Assembly (NCBI RefSeq): GCF_017255185.1
Contig: NZ_JAFKCZ010000006.1
Location: forward strand, 248,001 to 312,000
Source of the DNA: Parahaliea mediterranea
GTDB taxonomy: Bacteria; Pseudomonadota; Gammaproteobacteria; Pseudomonadales; Halieaceae
Length of the DNA stretch: 64,000 nucleotides
Reading direction: 5' to 3'
Positions 23,090 to 28,069 of this stretch are shown piece after piece (position 1 is the stretch's first letter; every line of letters starts with the position of its first letter). The notes beneath the pieces were generated by a model, which had not been told where the DNA came from, did no database searches, and saw only the letters and a program-made list of their open reading frames with translations. The translations under genes and the position numbers were made by a program.

Positions 23090-23998
23090 CTAGCCCGGCG
23101 CTTTTTCCCGCCGTAAAGGCTGGCACATGCAGTGCACCCCGCCACCCCCGGCAGTGAACATCGACACATCCGGGTCGATCACCGTCAGGCCGTGGGCGCG
23201 GCATTTTTGTGCCAGTTCGGTATTGTCTTTGGGCAGCAGCACGCGCCCGTTGCCCAGGGCCACCACATTGCAGCCCAGCTCCAGCATCGCGCGGTAGGAG
23301 ATGTCGATCAGCTCGATGCCGCGCCCACGCAGCCAGTCGACGAAGTCCTGTTCCAGGGCCTGGATGCAGGCCGCGGCCAACTTGTGATCGAGCATGGCCA
23401 GCTTGACGTCGAGGTGCAGGAAATAGGGGTCGAAGCGGTAACTGACGAATTCCCAGCCCTCGGCCTCGATCCAGTCCTGCACCTGGGCCAGGCCTTCGGG
23501 GCTGGTGCGCTCGCCGCTGGAGCCGCAGACCACCAGCCCCGGTTCCAGCACCATGAAGTCGCCGCCCTCGAACGCGCCGGCGGTGACCACGTCGTAGACG
23601 GGAATCTCCCGGTCGCGGTAGAACTCCAGTACCGGCTTCCACTCGCCGCGCCTCCAGGGGCTGTACATCTGGGTGACGATCGGTCCCCAGGGGGTCATCA
23701 CCGAGGAGTCCCGGGCGTAGAGCTGGTAGGGCAGCACCGGGTCCGGTTCCAGGATATGGGTGTTCACGCCGGCCTGACGGTAAGCGTCCAGCATCTCGCC
23801 GTACTGGGCGCGGGCGGTCTCGCGGTCGAAGCGGCGGCCCAACCGCTGGGAGCGCCGGGACATGGCGTTGCCGCTCTGCCAGCTGTAGTGGTCCATGGGG
23901 CCCAGCAGCACGTCGCGCAGTACGCCGTACTCGGAGTCCATGCCCCACTGGCTCAGGATGGGGCTGCCGCCGCCGGGCTGTCGGTGTGTCAGTTTCAT
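23090..23998 (-). CDS. Guanidine-modifying superfamily enzyme (dimethylarginine/arginine deiminase-like)
   Basis: A 302-residue enzyme of the amidinotransferase/deiminase fold, which attacks a guanidine carbon with a catalytic Cys. The key residues are all present: Asp97 (YARDSSV), Glu144-Gly-Gly-Asp147 (FEGGDFM), His195 (LHLDVKL) and the nucleophile Cys290 (GGGVHCMCQPL). Length and GGGVHCMCQP ending fit DDAH/deiminase rather than glycine amidinotransferase. It is the last gene of a four-gene operon and overlaps the M20 hydrolase by four bases. I infer hydrolysis of a guanidino acid (perhaps 4-guanidinobutanoate) to a ureido acid plus ammonia; methylarginine is another possibility. Confidence 0.88.
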   Translation of the reverse strand: MKLTHRQPGGGSPILSQWGMDSEYGVLRDVLLGPMDHYSWQSGNAMSRRSQRLGRRFDRETARAQYGEMLDAYRQAGVNTHILEPDPVLPYQLYARDSSVMTPWGPIVTQMYSPWRRGEWKPVLEFYRDREIPVYDVVTAGAFEGGDFMVLEPGLVVCGSSGERTSPEGLAQVQDWIEAEGWEFVSYRFDPYFLHLDVKLAMLDHKLAAACIQALEQDFVDWLRGRGIELIDISYRAMLELGCNVVALGNGRVLLPKDNTELAQKCRAHGLTVIDPDVSMFTAGGGGVHCMCQPLRREKAPG

Positions 23999-25251
23999 GT
24001 CGTGATCTCCGCTCTATCGGCCACCGCCAGCAGCAGGACATTGGCGCCGGCCTCCGCCTGTTCCGGGGTGATGTTCTCCGCCTCGTTGTGGCTCAGGCCA
24101 CCCTCGCAGGGAATGAATATCATGCTGGTGGGCGCCACGCTGGCGACATTGCAGGCGTCGTGGCCGGCGCCGGACACCATCTGCCGGTGGGAATAGCCGA
24201 GCGCGTCCACGGCGTTTTGCACCGCCGCCACGCAGCCCGGATCGAAAGCCACACCGGGCGCCACCCAGAAGCATTCGCGCTCGTGCGGCAGGGAATATCG
24301 ATCGCAGGCCGACTGGACGATTTCCTCAAAACCGTCCAGCATGGCCCGATAGCGGGCCTCGTCGGGATGGCGCAGATCTACGGTGAACTCGACCCTGCCG
24401 GGCACCGTGTTGCTGGAACCGGGTTCGGCGGTGATAAAGCCGATGGTCACCCGGCTGTCCTCGCCCTGCTCTTCCGCCAGCTGGTAGAGCCGCGGCAGGA
24501 TGTCGCCGAGGGCCATCACCGGGTCTTTGCGCAGCGCCATGGGGCTGGGACCGGCGTGGGTTTCCTGGCCGCGGATCACCACCCGGTGGCGGCTCATGTG
24601 CTGCACGCCGGTCACCACGCCAATGGCGAGACCCTCCGCCTCCAGCACCGGCCCCTGCTCGATGTGCAGTTCGAAGGCGGCGTGCACCGGTTGCGATGTC
24701 GCCGGATGCTCCCCGAGCTGCCCGGTGCGCGCCAGTTCATCGCGCACACTGGCGCCGTTGCGGTCGGTCAGGGCGTAGGCCGCTTCCAGGGGCATATTGC
24801 CGGACCACACCGCCGAGCCCATCATCGCGGTGTCGAAGCGGCAACCTTCCTCGTTGGTCCACACCGCCACTTCCAGTGGGTGGCGGGTCTGCACACCGGC
24901 CTCGTTCAAGGCCTCGATCACCTCCAGGCCCGCCAGCACCCCGTAAACACCGTCGAACTTGCCGCCGGAGGGCTGGGTGTCCAGGTGGCTGCCCATCAAT
25001 ACCGGCGGCAAACTGTCGTCGCTGCCCGGGCTCCGGGCGAACAGGTTGCCCACCGCGTCGCGGCGGACCGTGCAGAGCGCGTCCTCGCACCAGCGCGCGA
25101 ACAGGGCGCGCCCGTCCCGGTCCTCGTCGGTCAGGGCCTGGCGATTGCAGCCCCCGGCCGGGGTGGCACCGTACTGGGCAATCTCCATCAGCCGCGACCA
25201 CAGGCGCCTGCCATCGACGCGCAATGCGTCGCGCGGGTTCGATGCCGTCAT
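23995..25251 (-). CDS. M20-family amidohydrolase (N-carbamoyl amino acid hydrolase/allantoate type)
   Basis: A 418-residue dinuclear-metal hydrolase of the hydantoinase/carbamoylase branch of family M20. Expected metal ligands are His89 (GSHLDTQPSGG), Asp100, Glu135 (TNEEG), His196 (ELHIEQGP) and His388 (SHNEAE). The HAGPSPM and GAGHDACN motifs and RVEFTVDLRHP are also typical. These enzymes remove the carbamoyl group from ureido acids (N-carbamoyl amino acids, ureidopropionate, allantoate). Starts and stops overlap its neighbours by four bases each, with GGAGGG upstream. Next to a deiminase-type enzyme this order is exactly what would turn a guanidino group into an amine in two steps. Confidence 0.9.
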   Translation of the reverse strand: MTASNPRDALRVDGRRLWSRLMEIAQYGATPAGGCNRQALTDEDRDGRALFARWCEDALCTVRRDAVGNLFARSPGSDDSLPPVLMGSHLDTQPSGGKFDGVYGVLAGLEVIEALNEAGVQTRHPLEVAVWTNEEGCRFDTAMMGSAVWSGNMPLEAAYALTDRNGASVRDELARTGQLGEHPATSQPVHAAFELHIEQGPVLEAEGLAIGVVTGVQHMSRHRVVIRGQETHAGPSPMALRKDPVMALGDILPRLYQLAEEQGEDSRVTIGFITAEPGSSNTVPGRVEFTVDLRHPDEARYRAMLDGFEEIVQSACDRYSLPHERECFWVAPGVAFDPGCVAAVQNAVDALGYSHRQMVSGAGHDACNVASVAPTSMIFIPCEGGLSHNEAENITPEQAEAGANVLLLAVADRAEITT

Positions 25252-26480: not shown

Positions 26481-28069
26481 TGGGGCCCGCTCCCCGGGAG
26501 GAAATCCCCCTCGCGGACCTCGATCAGTGTCGGCACCTGCCGCGCGTTCGCCTCCCGCAGCAGGCGCTCCAGCTCCTGGTGATTGCGGGCCCGCTCGGCG
26601 GCGCAGCCGTAGCCGCGGGCGATCGCCAGCAGGTCCGGCGTATAGATATCGCAGGCAATGGGCGCCATCCCGGCGTCCTCGAAATTGCGCGCGATCATGT
26701 CGTAGCGGGTGTTGTTCCACACCACCACCGCCAGTCCCAGTTGCGCCTCCACCGCGCTCGCCAGTTCGGGCAGCGTGAACTGCAGGCCGCCGTCCCCCAG
26801 CAGCGCGATCACCGGGCGGTCCGGCCGGGCCAGCCTGGCGCCGCAGGCCGCCGGCAGCGCGTAGCCGAGGGTGCCGTAGCCGGTGGCGGCACTGGCGAAG
26901 CTGCGCGGCGCCGGGGGGTGGTACTGCGCGGCGGCGTAATAGGCCGGCTGGGTGGAATCCGCCACCAGCACCGCACCGGGCAGGGCGGACTCCAGGGTGT
27001 CGAGGAAGCGCTGGTAGTGAGGGTCGTGGCCGCGCACCGCCGACAGCACCGCGTTGGTGCGCGCAGCGCCGCCGCGCTCGCGCCGCTCCAGGCGCGGCAG
27101 CAGCGCCGACAGGGCCGCGGCGCTGTCGGCGCGAATGGCCAGGTCGGGGCGCGCGTTGCGGCACAGCTGCGCCGGGTCGATGTCGATGCGCACCAGTTCG
27201 CCGCCCAGGGCGAAGCCGCCGTCAAAGAAAAAGTCGTAATCGGTTTCGCTGAACTCGGTGCCCACCCCCAGAATCAGGTCGGCCTCCAGGTACAACTCGC
27301 GCACCGCCTGGAAGGACGGCGAGGTCGCCACCAGCAGGGGATGATCCGGGGGCAGGATACCGCGCGCATTGTGGGTAAGCGTCACCGGCGCATCCAGCGC
27401 CTCGGCCACGTCCCGGGCCAGCGCGGCGGCATCCGCCGCCCCGCCGCCCAGCGCAACGACCGGACGCTCGGCCCGGTTCAGGCGCCGCGCGGCCTCGTCT
27501 ATCTGCGCCTCGGGAGCCACCGGCCGCTGCGCCAGGGGCCAGGCGCGGGCATCGACATGCCCGGCTTCGGCGGTGATCACGTCCAGCGGCAGGGCCAGGT
27601 GTACCGGGCCGGGGCGCTCGCTGTGCAGTATGGTAAAGGCCCGGGCCAGGACCTTCGGCAGCTCGTCGGGGCGCATCAGCGTGTGGCTCCACACACTGGC
27701 TTCTGCCATGGCCGCCTGCAGGTTGCGGGTCTCGTGCAGGCGGCCCTCGCCGAGGCCGCGCTCGTGCCGCTGGTTGTCGGCGGAGATGACCAGCATCGGC
27801 ACCGAATCCTGCAGCGCCTGCCCCATGGCGGTGGCGATATTGAGCGCGCCCGGACCGGAGACCGTCAGGCACACCGCGGGCCTGCCGGTGACCCGGGCGT
27901 ATCCGTCGGCCATGAAACCCGCCCCCTGCTCGTGCCGCGGGCTAATGTGGCGAATGCCGCCGTCCCGCAAGCCCCGGTAGAGCTCGATGGTGTGGGTGCC
28001 GGGAATACCGAAGGCCGTGTCGATGCCGTGGTCCGCCAGCATGCGCATCAAAAGCTCGCCGCAATTCAT
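26477..28069 (-). CDS. aruI: Thiamine-diphosphate-dependent 2-oxoacid decarboxylase, AruI-like
   Basis: A 530-residue enzyme of the acetolactate synthase/pyruvate decarboxylase fold. The catalytic Glu47 lies in PRHEQGAGFMADGYAR. The three domains are in normal order: the N-terminal pyrimidine domain, a central domain, and a C-terminal ThDP domain with the GDGGLQFTLPEL motif (about 425-440) ending at NNTRY. The start MNCGELLMRMLADHG and FGIPGTHTIELYRGL closely resemble AruI, 5-guanidino-2-oxopentanoate decarboxylase, which converts 2-ketoarginine to 4-guanidinobutanal. It heads the operon, divergent from a LysR gene. Similar enzymes acting on other 2-oxoacids exist, so the substrate is inferred. 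Confidence 0.85.
   Translation of the reverse strand: MNCGELLMRMLADHGIDTAFGIPGTHTIELYRGLRDGGIRHISPRHEQGAGFMADGYARVTGRPAVCLTVSGPGALNIATAMGQALQDSVPMLVISADNQRHERGLGEGRLHETRNLQAAMAEASVWSHTLMRPDELPKVLARAFTILHSERPGPVHLALPLDVITAEAGHVDARAWPLAQRPVAPEAQIDEAARRLNRAERPVVALGGGAADAAALARDVAEALDAPVTLTHNARGILPPDHPLLVATSPSFQAVRELYLEADLILGVGTEFSETDYDFFFDGGFALGGELVRIDIDPAQLCRNARPDLAIRADSAAALSALLPRLERRERGGAARTNAVLSAVRGHDPHYQRFLDTLESALPGAVLVADSTQPAYYAAAQYHPPAPRSFASAATGYGTLGYALPAACGARLARPDRPVIALLGDGGLQFTLPELASAVEAQLGLAVVVWNNTRYDMIARNFEDAGMAPIACDIYTPDLLAIARGYGCAAERARNHQELERLLREANARQVPTLIEVREGDFLPGSGPQ

Follow-up and report, generated by a model that had tools for sequence, protein, structure and literature searches.

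The stretch analysed here (the window) comprises 64,000 nucleotides of the Parahaliea mediterranea draft genome (assembly GCF_017255185.1, contig NZ_JAFKCZ010000006.1, positions 248,001 to 312,000), and our subject is a set of four genes on its minus strand, at 23090-28069, that probably encode a modified arginine transaminase pathway, with a deiminase-carbamoylase pair in place of guanidinobutyrase. The original prediction, made from the sequence alone, had placed the four genes in one operon, and we confirmed their open frames. Together with a divergent gene, they are:

26477-28069, minus strand: AruI-like gene for a thiamine diphosphate (ThDP) enzyme of 530 aa with three TPP_enzyme Pfam domains, predicted 5-guanidino-2-oxopentanoate (2-ketoarginine) decarboxylase.
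25248-26480, minus strand: class I/II aminotransferase gene (410 aa, PF00155), predicted arginine:2-oxoacid transaminase.
23995-25251, minus strand: M20 gene (418 aa, hydantoinase/carbamoylase family), predicted 4-ureidobutyrate amidohydrolase.
23090-23998, minus strand: gene for a pentein guanidine-modifying enzyme, GME (302 aa, PF02274/PF19420), predicted 4-guanidinobutyrate deiminase.
28153-29097, plus strand, divergent: LysR-type (GcvA-like) gene (PF00126/PF03466), predicted regulator of the operon.

The genes had been described as overlapping by four bases at every junction. This stands for the ATGA overlaps between the aminotransferase and M20 genes (25248-25251) and between the M20 and GME genes (23995-23998), but it is uncertain for the ThDP and aminotransferase genes, which share four bases (26477-26480) only if the latter starts at 26480. 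An alternative ATG at 26456 has AGAGGA just upstream and matches, in an alignment made by eye, the methionine of the relatives L165 and L166 (L numbers stand for loci and G numbers for genomes). Judging by these features we consider 26456 the more likely start, which would leave a 20-base gap between the two genes. The original prediction had suggested looking for the same gene order elsewhere, and we found ThDP-aminotransferase-M20-GME in four more loci of Parahaliea and Haliea (L002, L005, L006, and L007), so the arrangement is not a product of chance. Divergent copies of the LysR-type gene, 65-70% identical, adjoin the ThDP gene in L002, L006, and L166.

The description of the first gene as an AruI-like decarboxylase was borne out by the NCBIfam model NF005712 ("5-guanidino-2-oxopentanoate decarboxylase"), which its product passes with 684.9 bits against a cut-off of 500. 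Among the best 25 of the 103 NCBIfam matches of the aminotransferase, none exceeded its cut-off and no AruH-named model appeared. Copies of it that are 66-80% identical are present downstream of the ThDP gene in relatives, including those where GME and M20 are not adjacent, and on the basis of this linkage to AruI and of its superfamily it is predicted to be an arginine transaminase.

The GME is over the Pfam cut-offs for PF19420 (DDAH_eukar) and PF02274 (ADI) and matched no other Pfam family, while it is far below cut-off in all seven NCBIfam models that it matched, which are of the dimethylarginine dimethylaminohydrolase (DDAH), arginine deiminase (ADI), and arginine dihydrolase types; for ArgZ it stays short of the equivalog domain cut-off (NF052232, 43.1 bits against 450). 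An AlphaFold2 model built from 28 sequences, with a mean predicted local distance difference test (pLDDT) score of 92, is closest to arginine deiminases and NnhA (Z 29-31), followed by DDAH 1h70 (28.9) and ArgZ (28.8), with Z values of 26-29 against amidinotransferases and 20.2 against agmatine deiminase 2jer; Z differences below 1 count as ties, and the fold comparison does not decide between a hydrolase and an amidinotransferase. The fold (Z 28-31 with ADI, ArgZ, and the DDAH of P. aeruginosa) and the Cys/His/Glu triad do place it among the pentein guanidine-modifying enzymes. That the GME might be an amidinotransferase rather than a hydrolase, as the common fold and the "amidinotransferase" annotation of one plasmid relative would allow, is hardly credible: its PDB sequence matches are DDAHs, ADIs, and a 2-nitroimidazole hydrolase, with no amidinotransferase among them, and a carbamoylase as its partner implies a ureido product.

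To the residues of the GME, aligned with DDAH and ADI chains, we transferred the roles (catalytic triad, guanidinium Asp, carboxylate arginines, and amine-binding Asp) given in the available excerpt of PMC11659421, the mapping to the window protein being our own. By this alignment Glu144, His195, and Cys290, already singled out in the original prediction, are the catalytic residues, Asp97 is the guanidinium-binding one, and Arg116 and Arg164 are carboxylate-binding; neither these residues nor Tyr91 and Asp197 vary in any of the 28 aligned homologues. Asp197 lies two positions past His195 and makes an HxD as in ADIs, whereas both aligned DDAHs have HxK, whose lysine is described in the same excerpt as giving room for the dimethylamino group (PMC11659421). 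Tyr91 occupies the position of the amine-binding Asp reported for ADI and DDAH, although in the alignment the ADI of P. aeruginosa (1rxx) has Asn there, not Asp. Taken together, the HxD, the two arginines, and Tyr91 point to a ligand with an unmethylated guanidine and a distant carboxylate, in which no alpha-amino group is recognised, a pattern that fits 4-guanidinobutyrate as the putative substrate. The same residues are equally present in a GME clade without M20, so they alone do not fix the substrate, and the portion of PMC6273216 available holds nothing on substrate residues.

These observations bear on a second explanation, according to which methylarginines (asymmetric dimethylarginine or monomethylarginine) would be transaminated and decarboxylated and the GME would release (di)methylamine like a DDAH. 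DDAHs are indeed its best Pfam and PDB sequence matches, but three DDAH equivalog models fall far below cut-off (best 75.1 bits against 300) and the conserved HxD is that of an ADI, not the roomier HxK of a DDAH, which makes the methylarginine route improbable.

The M20 protein passes the hydantoinase/carbamoylase model TIGR01879 (410.4 bits, cut-off 204) and NF006769 (548, cut-off 452), and matches the N-carbamoyl-beta-alanine amidohydrolase of PDB 8c46 with E=2e-115, in line with the carbamoylase type proposed for it. The complete set of metal ligands that had been claimed is also in place, since His89, Asp100, Glu134, Glu135, His196, and His388, which we take from family knowledge to bind the metals, are kept in 57 of 57 aligned rows. 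By motif and a constant offset of 3, Glu134, Gln199, Arg294, and His388 (likewise in 57/57 rows) match the ligand residues of RrCbetaAA, an enzyme that we equated with 8c46 by name. The available text of PMC10952681 reports that an arginine of RrCbetaAA holds the far carboxylate and that linear carbamoyl acids are preferred, and the carbamoylase is said there to suit gamma-amino acids. Such a preference argues against a further alternative, in which the GME would be an arginine deiminase and M20 would turn citrulline into ornithine, as a second route independent of the aminotransferase and the ThDP enzyme. Its ADI-like fold and guanidinium residues would suit the GME to that role; yet both ADI models that it matched are far below cut-off (for ArcA, TIGR01078, 48.8 bits against 489.1) and the reported amine-binding position is an invariant Tyr, and we think this very improbable, more so than the methylarginine route.

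To place the deiminase-carbamoylase pair among its relatives, a one-genome-per-species scan was run that returned 212 GME relatives. We retained the best 80 loci, or 81 with the window, and called M20 adjacent when it lay on the strand of the GME within 300 bases. This is so in 57 of the 81 loci, the window included, and in 57 of the 59 with a GME identity of 56% or more, the two exceptions being L033, which lies at the edge of its contig, and L058, which does not. Both gene orders occur, M20-GME in 44 loci and GME-M20 in 13, and on the GME tree the order has flipped at least twice. Beyond the 81 loci, M20 neighbours GMEs of lower identity in L182 (55%, same strand) and on the plasmid L205 (44%), and it lies on the other strand beside the GME in L176 (50%) and L177 (43%). 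A Zn-dependent hydrolase gene directly follows the GME relative on the Rhodobacteraceae M382 plasmid and does so with two permease genes between on a Sinorhizobium medicae plasmid, and a 43% GME relative on a Pararhizobium plasmid is found about 7 kb from an annotated 5-guanidino-2-oxopentanoate decarboxylase gene. Genes that would act on 4-aminobutyrate (GABA) occur as well: in L048 a succinate-semialdehyde dehydrogenase gene (TIGR01780 677.6, cut-off 646.35) and a class III aminotransferase gene stand directly before M20-GME, and L008 has a GABA-transaminase-type gene (TIGR00700 566.5, cut-off 506.65) and a succinate-semialdehyde-type aldehyde dehydrogenase gene about 7 kb upstream. The pair is accompanied by aldehyde dehydrogenase, DAO-type oxidase, permease, and TonB receptor genes in Microbulbifer, and by Rieske oxygenase, Gate-domain permease, and aldehyde dehydrogenase genes in Alteromonas and Glaciecola.

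Some further features of these neighbourhoods deserve mention. A Rieske oxygenase and a Gate-domain permease lie near GME-M20 in L003, L010, L012, L013, L020, L021, L023, and L024, and L003, L010, L013, and L024 carry an AruI-like gene as well. In Vibrio and Psychromonas (L052, L053, L055, and L056), M20-GME is found with genes for a LuxR regulator, a TIM-barrel protein, a class II aldolase, a 2-oxoglutarate (2OG)-Fe oxygenase, and an ABC transporter ATPase, as well as one of the 2-hydroxyacid-dehydrogenase cluster, possibly a pathway for a hydroxylated guanidino acid. GMEs below 56% without an adjacent M20 (L061-L064, L066, L067, L069, L073, L074, and L076) have as neighbours one or more of a glutamine-synthetase-like (gamma-glutamylputrescine-synthetase-like) gene, a class III aminotransferase gene, a DAO gene, and PotGH-type transporter genes. 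On a Komagataeibacter plasmid (L207) the GME is present and the annotated M20 gene is just 93 bases long, apparently a remnant.

We then compared gene content in genomes with an AruI-like gene (E <=1e-110), which was present in 23 of 140 genomes of the family and 60 of 391 of the order, at least 90% complete, giving 75 distinct genomes; the GME was called at E <=1e-40, two matches at about 1e-6 (G009, G052) not being counted. The ureohydrolase of G011, where the order is ureohydrolase-permease-AruI, served as the guanidinobutyrase-type query, and of its matches, which split into 63-100% and <=50% identity, the first set was counted; because of this linkage to AruI we read the type as a probable guanidinobutyrase, and it passes the NCBIfam agmatinase model TIGR01230, as do SpeB-type genes of several GME genomes. 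Within 10 kb of the AruI-like gene it is found in 26 of the 46 genomes that have it. The GME is present in 23 of the 75 genomes; in the order, 16 of the 19 genomes with GME have an AruI-like gene, against 44 of 372 others. The guanidinobutyrase type, found in 46 of the 75, occurs in 45 of the 52 without GME and in one of the 23 with it (G015), a near-exclusion with a Fisher p of 6e-12 (by genus, 23/28 against 1/8, p 6e-4). Both the co-occurrence with AruI and this near-exclusion speak against an arginine deiminase. Urease, lacking in 14 of the 23 GME genomes, is rarer there (9/23 against 38/52, p 0.009; without four partial matches, 34/52 for genomes lacking GME, p 0.044; both uncorrected for relatedness). 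On the AruI tree the GME needs eight changes; with the 22 GME-only rows the number is seven, and well-supported branches force at least five.

The draft genome of the window (5.03 Mb, 45 contigs, 98.74% complete) agrees with this picture. Its sole ureohydrolase found passes the HutG model (TIGR01227 261.5, cut-off 229) and adjoins an open frame that reads by eye as HutI, and neither the guanidinobutyrase-type query (E 1e-45) nor urease alpha (E 1e-20) found a match, both absences being provisional. The Aldedh profile has 17 matches in it. On contig C12, a succinate-semialdehyde-dehydrogenase-type gene (TIGR01780 685.9, cut-off 646.35) adjoins an omega-aminotransferase gene (NF052567 546.4, cut-off 500), and by family the two could carry GABA to succinate. 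As for the dehydrogenase of 4-guanidinobutyraldehyde, two C12 candidates cannot be given that name: L085 (C12:84229) is 62-65% identical to the succinate-semialdehyde-type enzymes of L048 and L008, and L088 (C12:95062) is 46-51% identical to the other cluster aldehyde dehydrogenases.

Several observations weigh against the arginine pathway variant and have to be set beside this evidence. The operon contains no aldehyde dehydrogenase gene, as had been pointed out in the original prediction. Below 56% identity, M20 adjoins the GME on the same strand in none of 22 loci, the contig ending no more than 1.3 kb away in six of them. Many GME-M20 pairs lie in stretches without AruI (an AruI-like ThDP gene is found in 11 of the 81), and at the M382 locus the pair, with a 44% GME, adjoins two arginase-family genes, from which it follows that GME-M20 may work on guanidino acids other than 4-guanidinobutyrate. 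The NF005712 scan of AruI-like proteins covered those of the window and L013. Seven GME genomes (G134, G356, G448, G036, G146, G302, and G015) retain further ureohydrolases that exceed the agmatinase cut-off; seven AruI-like genomes, three of them less than 90% complete, have neither the GME nor the guanidinobutyrase type; and ten of the 23 GME genomes belong to a single genus whose AruI-like proteins are 46-49% identical to that of the window (leaving it out, by arithmetic, the guanidinobutyrase type on the GME side is 1/13). Finally, six supported pairs on the AruI tree differ in GME, with 1-3 (mean 2.6) going the expected way, none the opposite way, and 3-5 silent (median p 0.25). The complementarity is thus consistent in direction and not significant after correction for the AruI tree, the independent events being too few.

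The loci without AruI are the ground for an explanation in which the main substrate of GME-M20 is a different guanidino acid, such as 3-guanidinopropionate or a derivative of a hydroxylated arginine, the linkage to the aminotransferase and ThDP genes reflecting a broader or different substrate rather than arginine itself. It would account for the oxidase, dehydrogenase, and permease neighbours in Microbulbifer and for the 2OG-Fe oxygenase, TIM-barrel, class II aldolase, and 2-hydroxyacid dehydrogenase genes in Vibrio and Psychromonas, and the solved bacterial M20 relative is named for, and was assayed with, N-carbamoyl-beta-alanine (PMC10952681, available excerpt). We nevertheless consider it unlikely, as the GME is complementary to the AruI-linked ureohydrolase and shares its operon with a 2-ketoarginine decarboxylase.

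Deimination and decarbamoylation to 4-aminobutanoate, the route originally proposed, therefore remains our best reading, given the pairing in relatives, the near-exclusion of guanidinobutyrase, a genome where no ureohydrolase other than HutG and no urease was found, and the active-site residues; the activities are predicted, and we infer every substrate and reaction of the four-enzyme route. The aminotransferase would convert L-arginine and a 2-oxo acid to 2-ketoarginine, which the ThDP enzyme, to judge from its family, would decarboxylate to 4-guanidinobutyraldehyde; a dehydrogenase assumed to be encoded elsewhere would oxidise this to 4-guanidinobutyrate. From their pairing, the replacement of guanidinobutyrase, and the residues, the GME would then use its Cys290/His195/Glu144 triad to form 4-ureidobutyrate and NH3, and M20 would hydrolyse the former to GABA, CO2, and NH3. 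GABA could enter the citric acid cycle through omega-aminotransferase and succinate-semialdehyde dehydrogenase. All guanidino nitrogen would leave as ammonia, with no urea formed and no need for urease. We are evenly divided over a broader reading, in which GME-M20 would be a portable unit: it would convert guanidino acids to amino acids, release CO2 and two ammonia but no urea, sit behind several feeder pathways, and have replaced guanidinobutyrase more than once, chiefly in gammaproteobacteria with marine-sounding genus names and often without urease. Its feeders would be arginine transamination with AruI and amine or aminoaldehyde oxidation with DAO and aldehyde dehydrogenase; the breakdown of argininate or hydroxyarginine, by way of 2OG oxygenase, class II aldolase, and 2-hydroxyacid dehydrogenase, may be a third.

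Elsewhere in the window, a small open frame about 0.3 kb past the operon (22424-22801, minus strand) has by eye the look of a PIN-domain (VapC-type) toxin, and a gene for an FMO/Baeyer-Villiger-type FAD monooxygenase (30440-32101, plus strand) is convergent with one for an AraC-type regulator (32077-33120, minus strand). No tRNA genes and no Rfam matches at gathering score were found in the whole window.

The ureohydrolase acts at the 4-guanidinobutyrate step in the known routes described in the available parts of PMC7268258 and PMC2242806, and the ureidobutyrate term in the excerpt of PMC4581275 refers to an amino-ureidobutyrate. The pairing of functions in the operon had been proposed as one not described before, and in the open PMC literature we too found no report of a GME-M20 pair acting on 4-guanidinobutyrate; each enzyme family is known, and the combination and the replacement of guanidinobutyrase are new as far as searched. 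Relatives of the GME are currently annotated as "arginine deiminase family", "DDAH family", or "amidinotransferase", and those of M20 as "Zn-dependent hydrolase". If the proposal is true, this widespread, vaguely named gene pair would gain a function, the last step of arginine transamination would be supplied in species without a detected guanidinobutyrase, and organisms without urease would recover the guanidino nitrogen in full.

Among known systems, the arginine transaminase pathway consists of AruH, AruI, 4-guanidinobutyraldehyde dehydrogenase, and the guanidinobutyrase GbuA. The predicted route shares its transamination, its ThDP-dependent decarboxylation, its intermediates up to 4-guanidinobutyrate, and GABA as product, and would differ in that deimination and decarbamoylation fall to two unrelated enzymes and yield ammonia, not urea. 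Agmatine deiminase and N-carbamoylputrescine amidohydrolase, the latter a nitrilase-type amidase, process a guanidino compound through the same two kinds of step, and agmatine deiminase has its fold in common with the GME; here, in contrast, the substrate would be a guanidino acid, the GME matches the DDAH and ADI Pfam families only, and the second enzyme is an M20 metallohydrolase. The GME also has the fold of the arginine dihydrolases ArgZ/AgrE and of the N-succinylarginine dihydrolase AstB, in which one enzyme carries out both steps from guanidine to amine, a conversion that would take two enzymes in the window. The CATCH-N arginine network of Sinorhizobium runs through similar transaminase, decarboxylase, and dehydrogenase steps via 4-guanidinobutanoate to GABA, but there, in the part of the report available, the ureohydrolase SpeB2 takes 4-guanidinobutanoate (PMC7268258). 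RrCbetaAA, lastly, belongs to the M20 family and has the ligand residues of the window protein, whereas the role given to it in the available excerpt is pyrimidine breakdown (PMC10952681), and the partner of M20 here is a predicted deiminase.

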